Origin: Marinomonas foliarum
Lineage (GTDB): Bacteria; Pseudomonadota; Gammaproteobacteria; Pseudomonadales; Marinomonadaceae
Assembly (NCBI RefSeq): GCF_003337275.1
Contig: NZ_QPJQ01000011.1
Location: forward strand, 1 to 64,000
Direction: 5' to 3'
Length of the DNA stretch: 64,000 nt
Position 1 is the stretch's first letter. Each line of letters starts with the position of its first letter. This document shows, in pieces, positions 59,097 to 63,127 of the stretch. The position numbers and the translations under genes are program-made. The notes below the pieces were generated by a model, which was not told the DNA's origin, did not search any database, and saw nothing but the letters and a program-made list of their open reading frames with translations.

Positions 59097-59126
59097 AAAA
59101 AAGGAGGCTATTCGCTTCCTTTTTTT
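59097..59126 (+). terminator. Terminator of secB
   Basis: AAAAAAGGAGGC (59097-59108) pairs with GCTTCCTTTTTT (from 59114) with one G-T pair over a 5-nt loop; the T-tract runs to 59126. Confidence 0.85.
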
Positions 59127-59173
59127 ATTGCATAATAGAAGACATAAATATCCTCCGTAATATGGAAGCTGTG

Positions 59174-59296
59174 ATGAAGAAGAAAAAAAAGCCTTGTCCA
59201 AATTGTCTCAGAGCTCGCTGGTTAATTCTCTATCTCGGTTGCTTTGCTTTGTTTGGCATTCTTGTCGTTAACCAGTTTTTTGAAAAGGGAATGTAA
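59174..59296 (+). CDS. 40-residue CPNC single-span membrane protein
   Basis: Starts ATG 59174 behind GGAAG (59164-59168); an in-frame ATG at 59162 would add four residues. The N-terminus is very basic (MKKKKKP), then CPNCLRARW, one hydrophobic segment (about 15-33, LILYLGCFALFGILVVNQF) and FFEKGM. By the positive-inside rule the CPNC pair is cytoplasmic and could bind metal or act in redox. Its stop (TAA 59294-59296) is one base before the GTG start of the following lipoprotein gene, so translation is probably coupled. I recognise no family. Confidence 0.7.
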   Translation: MKKKKKPCPNCLRARWLILYLGCFALFGILVVNQFFEKGM

Positions 59297-59297
59297 G

Positions 59298-60965
59298 GTG
59301 AGGTTGCTCCTTCTGTGGCTTAGTGTGAGCGTGTTGAGTGGCTGTGCTACCTACCAGCAAGATATTGAAGCAGGCTTAAGTTTGGCCAAAGCTGGCGAAT
59401 GGAAAGAAGCGGAGGAGCAACTAGAAGACGTACTATCCAACAAGCAGGACTCACTACTGTATTACATGGAAATTGGTGCTCTTGCACAAAACCAGGGAAA
59501 TTACGAACGCAGCAATACATTACTAGAAAAAGCAGAGCGATTAAGCGATACCTTCTTTCCTGATAATTTTTCGAATCGCTCCTGGGCTCTGCTCAGCAAC
59601 CCAAGACAAAGCGACTATCGCGGCAGCGGGCTAGAACGCGTTTACATCAGCTATCTTAAATCTTTGAACTACCTAGCTCTGGCTGAGCAAGAAAAAAATA
59701 GCGCTAAAAAGCGCCAACTCAATGATGCAGCCTTAGTAGAAGTACGACGCATTGACATCAAACTTAATGAAATCCGCGCCCAAACCCCAAGTTATCAAGA
59801 CCTTAATACCAAAGAAAACCAAGCCTTTTACATGAAGGCATTAAACTGGTTAGGTGATTTTTACACTGGCGGACGTGACACCGATAAATTCCTCTATCGT
59901 GATGATGCTTGGGCTCGTTACTTAGCTGGGCTGCAATACGAAATCGATGGCGCATTCGATGATGCACGTATCAGCTATGAAAAAGCCGCTAACCTGTATG
60001 AAGACGGTTATGCCATGCAATATGCTTTGCCTAGCACAACCGCAGATCGAGCTTGGCTAGATGCGATTCGTATGATGCAAAAAGGCGGTTTCAGTCAAAG
60101 TGAAGTTCAACAAAAAATAGACACCAAACTGTCTGCAGACATGCAAGAAACCCTCAAGCAATACAGCAAAGGCGACGCAGAATTAGTGGTTTTAGAGCAT
60201 CAAGGCTTTATTCCCGATAAAAGCGAAATGACCCTATTGCTGTACGCAGACCCTCAAGCCTATTCATTGGTACTTGAACCACTTCACGGTGGCGGTAGCC
60301 AAACTGCAAATGACTCATTTCGTTGGTTTACCATGGTGTATGCTGACATTAACCCACTAAACCTAATCGCCAATTACAAAGCAGGAGGAGCATGGGGAAC
60401 TTTTTCAGGTGTCTTTACCAAGCGAGTTATACTTGGTCGGCCTGTTTGGCGGCAACTGCAGGATATCAACGTAGACCGATTGCTCACGGAGCAAACCATT
60501 CGTGTCACAGTCCCCTATTATCAACGCTTTACACTGGATCAGCATCAGCCAACGCTACAAGTAAATACGTCATCCATCGCGCCTTTTAAAAGCGCATTAC
60601 GAATGACATCGCTAGCCGACATAGCCTTTCAAGAGCAACTAGCTCAAGCTCAACGAGATATTTATGAAGGCCTAGTAAGAGAATTACTACGCAGTTGGTT
60701 AGCCTATCATGCGTCATCAAGTGTTCAGGACCAAAATGTCGCTTTGATTTTAAACCTAATTGGCCAAGTCGCCGTGTTTGCCTCATCAGCAGCAGACACA
60801 CGGAATTGGCTCACACTGCCTGCGCAAGTCAGACTAACCCGTGAGCCTCTGCCACCCGGCAACTACAACCCAGAATACAAAGTGGATAAAAATACATTCT
60901 CTCTCGGTGGGGTCAGCTTAGAAGCCAATGAAATTAAACTTTGGAATCTTCGCAACCCCTATTAG
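59298..60965 (+). CDS. COG3014-type TPR lipoprotein
   Basis: A 555-residue lipoprotein from GTG 59298 (read as MRLLLLWL) with AAGGG 8 nt upstream; lipobox LSGC with Cys16. Residues about 20-110 and 205-245 have TPR-like helical repeats (AKAGEWKEAEEQLEDVL, NYERSNTLLEKAERL, FDDARISYEKAANLYEDGY); the C-terminal half is beta-rich. COG3014 proteins have no known function but occur next to LpoB and LPP20 lipoproteins, as here. Confidence 0.82.
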   Translation: MRLLLLWLSVSVLSGCATYQQDIEAGLSLAKAGEWKEAEEQLEDVLSNKQDSLLYYMEIGALAQNQGNYERSNTLLEKAERLSDTFFPDNFSNRSWALLSNPRQSDYRGSGLERVYISYLKSLNYLALAEQEKNSAKKRQLNDAALVEVRRIDIKLNEIRAQTPSYQDLNTKENQAFYMKALNWLGDFYTGGRDTDKFLYRDDAWARYLAGLQYEIDGAFDDARISYEKAANLYEDGYAMQYALPSTTADRAWLDAIRMMQKGGFSQSEVQQKIDTKLSADMQETLKQYSKGDAELVVLEHQGFIPDKSEMTLLLYADPQAYSLVLEPLHGGGSQTANDSFRWFTMVYADINPLNLIANYKAGGAWGTFSGVFTKRVILGRPVWRQLQDINVDRLLTEQTIRVTVPYYQRFTLDQHQPTLQVNTSSIAPFKSALRMTSLADIAFQEQLAQAQRDIYEGLVRELLRSWLAYHASSSVQDQNVALILNLIGQVAVFASSAADTRNWLTLPAQVRLTREPLPPGNYNPEYKVDKNTFSLGGVSLEANEIKLWNLRNPY

Positions 60966-61029
60966 ACTCTATTAAATTGATTATACTAACGGCTTGGCAT
61001 CAGGCTAAAACGGACGTAAGGAAAATATT

Positions 61030-61656
61030 ATGCGCATCGGAACTCTTAAACAGCCGAATCTAATTTCTCTATCATGGAAAGCGCTTATCGCTCTCTCCAT
61101 GACTGTATTACTGACAGCCTGTTCTGGCAGTGTAAAACGTCTTGATACCAATGAAGATGTGATGCTGTCTGACCGCTGGAATGACACAGACTCTCGCCTT
61201 GTCGCGGAAGAAATGATGAACGATATGCTGACATTCCCATGGTTCCGTAACTATAACTTCAGCAATAAAGGCAACCCAACAGTTATTGTTCAAACCATCC
61301 GTAACAAAACCTCTGAACACATTCCTGTTGATACCTTCATCAATGATATCAAACGCAGCTTGTTACGTGCCGGCAAAGTCGATTTTGTTGTATCCGGAGC
61401 TGAACGCGATGAGGTACGCAGCGAACGCGAAGAGCAAGAATTAAACGCAGCACCGGACACTGTCGCCAAGTTCGGTTTAGAACAAGGCGCTGGCTTTGCC
61501 CTATCAGGTACCATTAACTCCATTGTGGACTCTAATGGCGACCAACGTGTAAGCTTCTACCAAGTTGACCTTAAATTGATTGATATGACGACAAACCGAG
61601 AAGTTTGGAATGGTCAGAAGAAAATCAAAAAATTGGCAGACAAAGGCTTTTTCTAA
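61030..61656 (+). CDS. lpoB: LpoB-like outer-membrane lipoprotein
   Basis: A 208-residue lipoprotein with LLTAC lipobox (Cys31) and an LpoB/YcfM domain (about 55-205): SDRWNDTDSRLVAEEMMNDML, NPTVIVQTIRNKTSEHIPVDTF, GFALSGTINSIVD. E. coli LpoB spans the periplasm to activate PBP1b. Here it sits between COG3014 and LPP20 lipoproteins, not near ponB, so the partner may be different. 64 bp after the COG3014 gene, 2 bp before the next. Confidence 0.85.
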   Translation: MRIGTLKQPNLISLSWKALIALSMTVLLTACSGSVKRLDTNEDVMLSDRWNDTDSRLVAEEMMNDMLTFPWFRNYNFSNKGNPTVIVQTIRNKTSEHIPVDTFINDIKRSLLRAGKVDFVVSGAERDEVRSEREEQELNAAPDTVAKFGLEQGAGFALSGTINSIVDSNGDQRVSFYQVDLKLIDMTTNREVWNGQKKIKKLADKGFF

Positions 61657-61658
61657 CT

Positions 61659-62687
61659 ATGAAACTCTCCGCTTTACCAACATCGTATAACTGGATAATG
61701 GTAACGGGTCTATTATTCAGTCTAACTGGCTGTACAGGTTTAATGACCGAGCCCGAGCAAGCACCAGAGACCATACCAGACTGGGTGTTGTCGCCACCTC
61801 GTGATAATACCCATTTATACGGTGTTGGCAGCGCGCCACGTATTGAAAACATTGCTCTCGCTTTTAATCAGGCAGAGCAAAACGGCAATGCTCAAATCGC
61901 CCAGCAGCTGCGAACCCAAGTCAGTCAGATTAATACTCAAGACACGCAAGTTCGATCTGGACAAGGCGGAGAGCAAGTTTCAAAAACACAAACCGCCTAT
62001 ACTCAAGTCACCACATCCCCCATTGAGTTAGAACAAACCAAGAACGAGAAACGCTTTGCAGGTGAAAACTACGTCTATGCCATGCAATCCATTGACCGCA
62101 GACGCATTGTTGCCAAACTCATAATAGCTATCAACGACACAGACTCAACGATTCGCAAAGAAGCCGCATTGTTAAGCAAGGCCGACGACCAATATCCTGC
62201 ACCGCAGGATTGGCAAACCTATATGCAGCTTATTCCGTATTTTGCCCAACGCAAATCCTACGTAGATGAGCTAACAATGTACTCCGTTGAGAATACAAGC
62301 GCCGGTAAAGCCGCCTCGGATATCCAAGCGATAGAAAAGCGGCTTAATCTCGCTCTAAGCCATTATGGATTTGATGTGTCTTCGACAAGACAAGCCGACC
62401 AATTAGCCAGTGCACTCTCGCATTTTGGCCTAACACCCAAAAGCGGCTCGCTTTTCAAACTAAATAGCAAAACCGTGCTACATACGGAAGAACAAGATGG
62501 ACGCTTTTATGCTTTTGAAGACGGAACTCTAGAACTTATCGACCCATCGGGTTCACGCTTGGCATCTTGGACTGTCAGCTCTAGAGGCATCGCGAAAAAT
62601 CAGGGCAAAGCCAAAGAGCAAGCGTCTTACAACTGGTCAAAGCAAGCTGTAGAGGCCATGTTTACTTGGTTAACTCGCTTGGATTAA
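61659..62687 (+). CDS. LPP20-family lipoprotein
   Basis: A 342-residue lipoprotein from ATG 61659 with SLTGC lipobox (Cys25). The N-terminal LPP20 domain shows PDWVLSPPRDNTHLYGVGSAP then an AxxQAEQNGNAQIAQQLRTQV helix, as in LPP20/FlgP-type proteins that form outer-membrane rings. The C-terminal part (about 190-342) has no recognised domain. Starts 2 bp after lpoB, so coupled; last of the lipoprotein cluster. Confidence 0.82.
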   Translation: MKLSALPTSYNWIMVTGLLFSLTGCTGLMTEPEQAPETIPDWVLSPPRDNTHLYGVGSAPRIENIALAFNQAEQNGNAQIAQQLRTQVSQINTQDTQVRSGQGGEQVSKTQTAYTQVTTSPIELEQTKNEKRFAGENYVYAMQSIDRRRIVAKLIIAINDTDSTIRKEAALLSKADDQYPAPQDWQTYMQLIPYFAQRKSYVDELTMYSVENTSAGKAASDIQAIEKRLNLALSHYGFDVSSTRQADQLASALSHFGLTPKSGSLFKLNSKTVLHTEEQDGRFYAFEDGTLELIDPSGSRLASWTVSSRGIAKNQGKAKEQASYNWSKQAVEAMFTWLTRLD

Positions 62688-62794: not shown

Positions 62795-63127
62795 GTGTCA
62801 AAATTCTTTTATCGTGGTAGACCCGATATCATGGGTAAGCATAACCTAGGCAATTATCAGCCTAAGCCTAAAGTAAAACCTGGTAGCGAAGAGAACCCGC
62901 TCATTTTACAAGTTCAAACGCCTGAGCGTGAGAGCGAAATAAATGCCATCTTGATCGCTAACGACTTGATCGCAGAAATTACGATTAACAGCGAAGTGGC
63001 CGAAGATATTACGCCTTTGGATATGGTGCTTAATAAACCAACTCCACAAATCGCTGAAAAAGCACCACAACGCAATGACCCTTGCCCATGTGGAAGCAGC
63101 AAGAAATACAAAAAGTGCTGCGGCTAA
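62795..63127 (+). CDS. SEC-C metal-binding mini-protein, PBPRA1643 type
   Basis: A 110-residue protein, GTG start at 62795 with TTAGGAA 6-9 nt upstream. The N-terminus [17 protein letters not shown] and the C-terminal zinc-binding SEC-C tail [17 protein letters not shown] (three or four Cys) match the PBPRA1643 family. In SecA the same tail binds zinc and SecB; a link to SecB/ribosomes is possible for this protein but unproven. Own terminator follows. Confidence 0.88.

Follow-up and report, generated by a model that had tools for sequence, protein, structure and literature searches.

The 64,000-nucleotide stretch of Marinomonas foliarum contig NZ_QPJQ01000011.1 analysed here (the window; all coordinates are positions within it) carries the gene of a 40-amino-acid, single-span microprotein, directly followed by genes for three lipoproteins of the TPR, LpoB-domain and LPP20-domain kinds (together the trio, or cassette). 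It is probable that two separate things lie on this one stretch of DNA: a conserved lipoprotein module and an independent microprotein of Marinomonas. The genus-wide 40-amino-acid gene, with its three invariant cysteines, would then be a clean case of a microprotein outliving the operon that it heads.

Presence of the microprotein and the lipoproteins in Marinomonas

The microprotein gene (59174–59296, forward strand) encodes a PCPNC-x3-RW segment, an in-membrane Cys23 and a C-terminal KG. Its open reading frame was present in all 48 Marinomonas genomes of the genus sample, 47 of which supplied codon counts (G044 was not read), and the conserved start is the ATG at 59174 rather than that at 59162. 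The mean ratio of nonsynonymous to synonymous differences per site (pN/pS) was 0.13 in seven genomes without the cassette (pN < pS in 21/21 pairs) and 0.21 in the 40 others (780/780 pairs). All 47 copies have CxxC-x3-R at the start of the helix, with C8, C11, R15, W16 and the in-helix C23 unchanged. A chance reading frame is ruled out by the presence in 48 of 48 genomes together with pN < pS in every pair compared. The 40-residue gene, which an earlier sequence-only reading of this DNA had taken to be real, is thus conserved, and on codon evidence the microprotein is a genuine, separate gene maintained as a protein. Because its net charge is +5 to +9 from the N-terminus to the helix and −1 to +1 in the tail, the N-terminus with the CPxC is predicted to face the cytoplasm.

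The TPR gene and the LpoB orthologue at the locus each occur in 41 of the 48 genomes, and the LPP20 gene in 40, the 41st (G026) being cut by a contig end. The seven genomes without the TPR gene are also those without the other two lipoproteins, and the microprotein is kept in every one of them. These genomes form one clade on the PBP1b tree (support 100/97, one change), the sister of which bears the cassette; the tree was rooted at its midpoint, so the direction of change follows from that rooting, and the simplest reading of the sequences is a single loss of the trio in this clade. Since the microprotein was retained where all three lipoproteins were lost, it probably lies outside the lipoprotein machinery. 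Outside the genus, it was seen at none of 65 loci with the module (L205–L269; L228 and L266 have almost no upstream DNA), and none was found at 32 gammaproteobacterial loci (L158–L189; best E 0.096). The proposal of the sequence-only reading that the CPNC peptide is part of a lipoprotein complex does not agree with its retention in the seven trio-less genomes and its absence from the 65 loci. The microprotein was also found in 14 of the 15 genus loci of the 80-locus scan described below. In the 15th (L198, M. rhodophyticola, L198:4870–5250), frame shifts seem to interrupt the microprotein as well as the TPR gene; a sequencing fault is the likeliest cause.

As judged by eye, other genes or insertion-sequence-like frames replace secB upstream of the microprotein in G011, G013 and G014, dispersed repeat-like stretches surround it at the cassette-less loci L090–L094 and L096, and near-identical frames recur inside L092. 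Distant LpoB-like proteins with 24–26% identity are encoded elsewhere in two cassette-less genomes, G004 (C13:92681–93253) and G011 (C2:24381–24971).

The junction between the microprotein and the TPR gene

The gene order upstream of the cassette is rhodanese, grxC and secB, then a hairpin, then the microprotein. The frames are as the sequence-only reading had described them, with a 40-residue CPNC frame ending one base before a TPR lipoprotein, and LpoB-like and LPP20 lipoproteins after it. The successive gaps measure 1, 64 and 2 nucleotides; the coupled starts that were also claimed hold for microprotein/TPR and LpoB/LPP20, but not for TPR/LpoB. The microprotein and TPR genes are adjacent on the same strand in all 41 cassette genomes.

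The conserved C-terminal KG is mostly written in AAA/AAG-GGN codons, which form a Shine-Dalgarno-like stretch just 5′ of the TPR start. In the window this is GAAAAGGGA (59282–59290, forward strand), placed within the final codons of the microprotein and positioned for the GTG at 59298. Of 40 cassette genomes, 39 have a Shine-Dalgarno-like tetramer in the last five codons of the microprotein; the 7 cassette-less ones, which are one lineage, all lack it. The KG as chiefly a protein motif was rejected, since it goes with the ribosome-binding site. Because the tetramer occurs with the cassette and is missing without it, the link between the microprotein and the TPR gene appears to be at least partly an embedded ribosome-binding site, that is, a matter of layout. 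The final codons of the microprotein would carry the TPR ribosome-binding site, and since this site would be embedded in the gene, the constancy of the junction would need no shared complex. Such an embedded site can mimic functional linkage.

The terminator-like hairpin of the Rho-independent type 3′ of secB and 5′ of the microprotein (59097–59126, forward strand) has a 12-pair stem with a T-run. The segment 59092–59136 folds at −15.4 kcal/mol (z −5.5), and none of 200 shuffles was as good. Comparable hairpins stand 5′ of the microprotein in about 19 of the 23 cassette genomes inspected by eye, and a pattern scan did not pick up the one at 59097–59126. The microprotein may have its own transcription start behind this secB terminator.

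The lipoprotein module across bacteria

Thirty-two loci around TPR homologues were compared, drawn from 31 of the 38 other gammaproteobacterial genomes with a TPR match and scanned with profiles built from the genus only. An LpoB-domain gene adjoins the TPR gene or lies near it at 30 of them, and an LPP20 gene was found at 18. At L165, L166, L168, L172, L174, L175, L177 and L179, a gap of about 450–700 nucleotides separates the TPR and LpoB-domain genes; that of L165, the sole one tested, holds a DUF1425/YcfL gene, giving the order TPR – DUF1425/YcfL – LpoB. A wider sample comprised the best 80 of at least 487 TPR relatives from GTDB species; the E-values of its hidden Markov models are inflated, as the profiles were re-trained on hits. 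Among these best 80, 79 loci have an LpoB-domain gene, the 80th (L266) being cut at a contig edge, and LPP20 genes occur at 15/15 genus loci and 26/65 others. The record names of the 80 include Bacteroidota, Gammaproteobacteria, Nitrospirota, Desulfobotulus, Gemmatimonadales and Poribacteria, although many records are metagenome bins and names may be wrong. The nearest named TPR loci among the matches listed belong to Marinomonas and Maribrevibacterium. A search of viral contigs with the TPR protein found none.

Among 258 genomes of the class, 38 have the TPR protein, and 37 of these also have a full-length LpoB domain (E < 1e-20, a line chosen by us), as do 14 of the other 220. The TPR count, obtained by searching with one sequence, is a minimum, and the cross-table assumes that the domain sample lies inside the TPR-search sample, as the agreement of handle numbers indicates. 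Judged from gene neighbourhoods, the TPR and LpoB-domain pair, often a trio with LPP20, is a genuine conserved envelope module. LPP20-domain lipoproteins accompany the pair in many Proteobacteria and in a few other groups. The conserved lipoprotein neighbourhood that the sequence-only reading had supposed thus extends, as a pair, to 30/32 gammaproteobacterial and 79/80 wider loci in several phyla, which fits a shared envelope function. The pair is widespread, and its real function is testable.

Just 3′ of the trio, the window encodes a PBPRA1643-family SWIM/SEC-C metal-binding protein (62795–63127; TIGR04102, 152 bits). Comparison of 20 genus loci, several of them cut short, detected this gene at L108 alone, so it is probably not part of the lipoprotein unit.

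Sequence and predicted structure of the lipoproteins

The TPR lipoprotein (59298–60965, forward strand; 555 amino acids) has a GTG start and the lipobox LSGC16, the Cys16 of which is conserved in 12/12. TPR repeats and a lipobox, both present here, are what we take to be the feature list of COG3014; that label came from the earlier reading, and searches of Pfam and NCBIfam gave no dedicated family for this protein. TPR_2 scored 25.4 bits, under the cut-off of 27, and reached 38.7 bits in the relative at L234. The AlphaFold2 model (mean predicted local distance difference test score 85.5, predicted template modelling score 0.85) has helical repeats over residues 35–287 and then a mixed C-terminal region. 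TPR structures matched this model, while the C-terminal region, which was not folded alone, gave no clear separate match in structure searches. By sequence, no relative of the TPR or LpoB-like protein was found among solved structures.

The LPP20-domain lipoprotein (61659–62687, forward strand; 342 amino acids) carries PF02169 (E 6.5e-8; 33.3 bits, cut-off 25.9) and a lipid Cys25 that is invariant in 31/31. Its top Foldseek match was HP1454 of Helicobacter pylori (4kzs; E 1.5e-7), on which model residues 49–340 were superposed with a VIA Z of 10.3 over 227 aligned residues, at a root-mean-square deviation (rmsd) of 6.8 that leaves domain placement loose. Over 102 aligned residues the first domain is close to H. 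pylori Lpp20 (5ok8; Z 8.7), and the second is CsgG/LptE/PelC-like, with CsgG at Z 12.3 and an rmsd of 2.6 over 106 aligned residues. A profile search recovered Lpp20 5ok8 (E 3.4e-9), and HP1454 4kzs with an E of 6.7e-5, no better than an artificial alphaRep protein (E 4.6e-5); a single-sequence search gave for the most part artificial helical repeats of the alphaRep type (best E 1.8e-4). In its modelled fold, the LPP20 protein thus resembles H. pylori HP1454 and Lpp20, and may be regarded as HP1454-type.

The residue after the lipid cysteine of a lipoprotein decides its outer-membrane destination. With A, S and T at this position, all three lipoproteins would be sent to the outer membrane. There they may form a periplasmic assembly with the TPR protein as scaffold, in which a ring or contact surface made of the LpoB-fold and LPP20/CsgG-like domains would tune both cell-wall enzymes and the outer membrane.

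Likeness of the microprotein to DsbB

The best Pfam match of the microprotein was PF02600 (DsbB), at E 0.002 and 19.0 bits, which is under the gathering score of 22.1. In DsbB, the segment before and in the helix holds the active-site CxxC and an arginine. The microprotein shares with DsbB the PCPxC-x3-R before a helix, and weak matches were obtained in both search directions. DsbB-sized frames are weak second matches to the microprotein in several genomes of the genus, and eight such frames (L271–L278), from the genus and other families and recognised as DsbB by eye, show PCPxC-x3-R. DsbB has four helices; the microprotein has one in 40 residues, lacks the second cysteine pair, and its lysine-rich N-terminus predicts the opposite face of the membrane. 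A sequence this short does not allow shared ancestry, borrowing and convergence to be distinguished.

Microproteins of a similar kind (C-x2-C-x3-RW-helix) recur at unrelated loci in no fewer than three further gammaproteobacterial families, as the short one-helix frames L048–L053, L056, L058 and L280–L282. Four of them directly follow a gene that by eye looks like lepB, three have a gene resembling tmcA (likewise by eye) nearby, and others lie elsewhere. The 12 non-genus matches L048–L059 comprised eight with a short frame, two in DsbB-sized frames (L055, L057), one with none (L054) and one left out (L059). Six of 25 further non-own matches were inspected: L280–L282 have the frame, that of L289 overlaps longer ones, and L283 and L286 have none. 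Two of three tested non-genus short frames also match DsbB weakly. The redox or metal role that the sequence-only reading had suggested for the CPNC peptide may hold, its motif being like the active-site segment of DsbB. The microprotein may be drawn with its N-terminus inside and one helix; its PCPxC-x3-RW would lie on the cytoplasmic side of the membrane and serve as a thiol-based or metal-based switch. A tentative proposal, to which we give a rather low probability, is that it belongs to a class of one-span proteins with a DsbB redox segment at the cytoplasmic face, acting as a thiol/quinone sensor or a zinc-linked dimer.

Alternative explanations

Several points weigh against treating the microprotein and the module as two separate things. 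The absence of the trio is one event on the tree, so that a single seven-genome clade carries the case for retention of the microprotein, and one deletion can remove three adjacent genes; for the same reason the joint absence of the three lipoproteins was rejected as strong support. The microprotein/TPR junction is unbroken in 41/41 cassette genomes, which would be expected under a functional link too, and a promoter scan found none at the microprotein, its sites being no more numerous than in shuffles. LPP20 occurs at only 18/32 and 26/65 non-genus loci, which makes the trio a less general grouping than the pair. H. pylori HP0018 and Campylobacter jejuni Cj0089 are likely members of the TPR family, set beside the window protein by description only, and Cj0089 is reported to be inner-membrane associated (PMC3100323), as against the outer-membrane placing of the TPR protein. 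The opposite explanation joins all four proteins in a single envelope complex, with the microprotein as its inner-membrane component or its sensor. The 1-base junction in the window, the same-strand adjacency across the cassette genomes and the TPR ribosome-binding site inside the microprotein would suit it, but the persistence of the microprotein in all seven genomes without the lipoproteins and its absence from the module loci outside the genus make it distinctly unlikely. If the open reading frame were a mere leader peptide that sets TPR expression, its sequence being of little use in trans, the internal Shine-Dalgarno stretch, the short gap and the terminator-like hairpin upstream would find a ready explanation. 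Such a leader would decay, however, while the amino-acid conservation is strong through the helix and persists without the downstream gene, and we consider this very improbable.

Other alternatives concern the trio. The LpoB-domain lipoprotein (61030–61656, forward strand; 208 amino acids, lipid Cys31) could be a true PBP1b activator like Escherichia coli LpoB, the other two lipoproteins serving PBP1b as well. It carries PF13036 over its full length (E 3.8e-41; 140.8 bits, cut-off 22.3), and the UB2H docking domain exceeds its cut-off in a PBP1b-size frame in 48/48 genus genomes. This holds with or without the trio, however, all seven trio-less genomes retaining UB2H. Among 24 pair-bearing genomes of other taxa (from 25 of the 80 loci, with L253 left out; completeness was not stated), only three have UB2H in a PBP1b-size frame, with 0/15 in Bacteroidota; a fourth over-cut-off match sits in a 1176-amino-acid frame, and matches of about 1150 amino acids we take by their size to be Mfd. 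The protein also falls under the NCBIfam TIGR02722 equivalog cut-off (101.1 vs 110.55 bits). From the lipid cysteine to the first conserved W of the WN motif, or to the aligned motif where W is missing, there are 19 residues; the 108 module proteins measured, the one of the window among them, all have 19–21 (two proteins gave no value), and E. coli LpoB has 60. In E. coli LpoB, a disordered stretch of 145 Å reaches UB2H (PMC6220978), and LpoB and UB2H are described as enterobacterial (PMC3060616). Because of the short linker, and because most pair-bearing genomes tested elsewhere are without UB2H, a role as PBP1b activator of the E. coli type is unlikely for the LpoB-like protein. Labels of 'penicillin-binding protein activator LpoB' in this neighbourhood should not be taken to imply a PBP1b role, because the TPR pair mostly stands without the UB2H docking domain in the genomes tested outside Marinomonas. 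That the trio is a flagellar accessory, as the LPP20 domain of FlgP and FlgT might suggest, has very little probability. FlgT (3w1e) did match with Z 8.9, but at an rmsd of 14.4, and HP1454 and CsgG-type domains match closer; in H. pylori, assays show interaction of both HP1454 and HP1456 with FlgP and FapH, but the hp1456 mutant remains motile and has a normal motor (PMC11756786). By eye, no larger open reading frame of the window near the trio looks flagellar.

Comparison with known systems

The sequence-only reading called the complex undescribed. This is too strong, since likely counterparts (cj0089–cj0091, HP0018, HP1454, HP1456 and HP1457) have been studied; if they are true relatives, the module is partly described in Campylobacterota. 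Titles and abstract openings on LpoB and lipoprotein operons contained nothing on this module, and the names COG3014 and LPP20 family lipoprotein gave no literature match. In C. jejuni, cj0089–cj0091 form a co-transcribed operon for a TPR lipoprotein of 453 amino acids and lipoproteins of 122 and 207 amino acids, the middle one being 46% identical to HP0444 (PMC3100323). The 207-amino-acid protein is called orthologous to HP1457, itself called an LpoB homologue (PMC11394524). The likeness to the window, judged by description, is a TPR lipoprotein and an LpoB-homologue orthologue in one lipoprotein operon; the 122-amino-acid protein in the cj0090 position is too short for the window LPP20 protein, and at a guess could be YcfL-like.

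HP0018 is a Cj0089 homologue and TPR lipoprotein with effects on cell shape and on vesicle formation, and AmiA and MltD were recovered with it in pull-downs (PMC11394524). According to the same source, it is solitary in H. pylori, unlike the window TPR gene, and its homologue stands beside an LpoB homologue in other Helicobacter. HP1454 and HP1456 lie in one operon (PMC11756786). Of the two domains in the LPP20 protein of the window, HP1454 matches both and HP1456 (Lpp20) the first; unlike the window protein, HP1454 is described there as three-domain and secreted.

The E. coli locus hinT-ycfL-lpoB-thiK is without a TPR gene, and E. coli LpoB has 16% identity to the window protein (E 1.2), besides the linker of 60 residues against 19. 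The two proteins have the PF13036 fold in common, and the order TPR – DUF1425/YcfL – LpoB at L165 recalls ycfL-lpoB.

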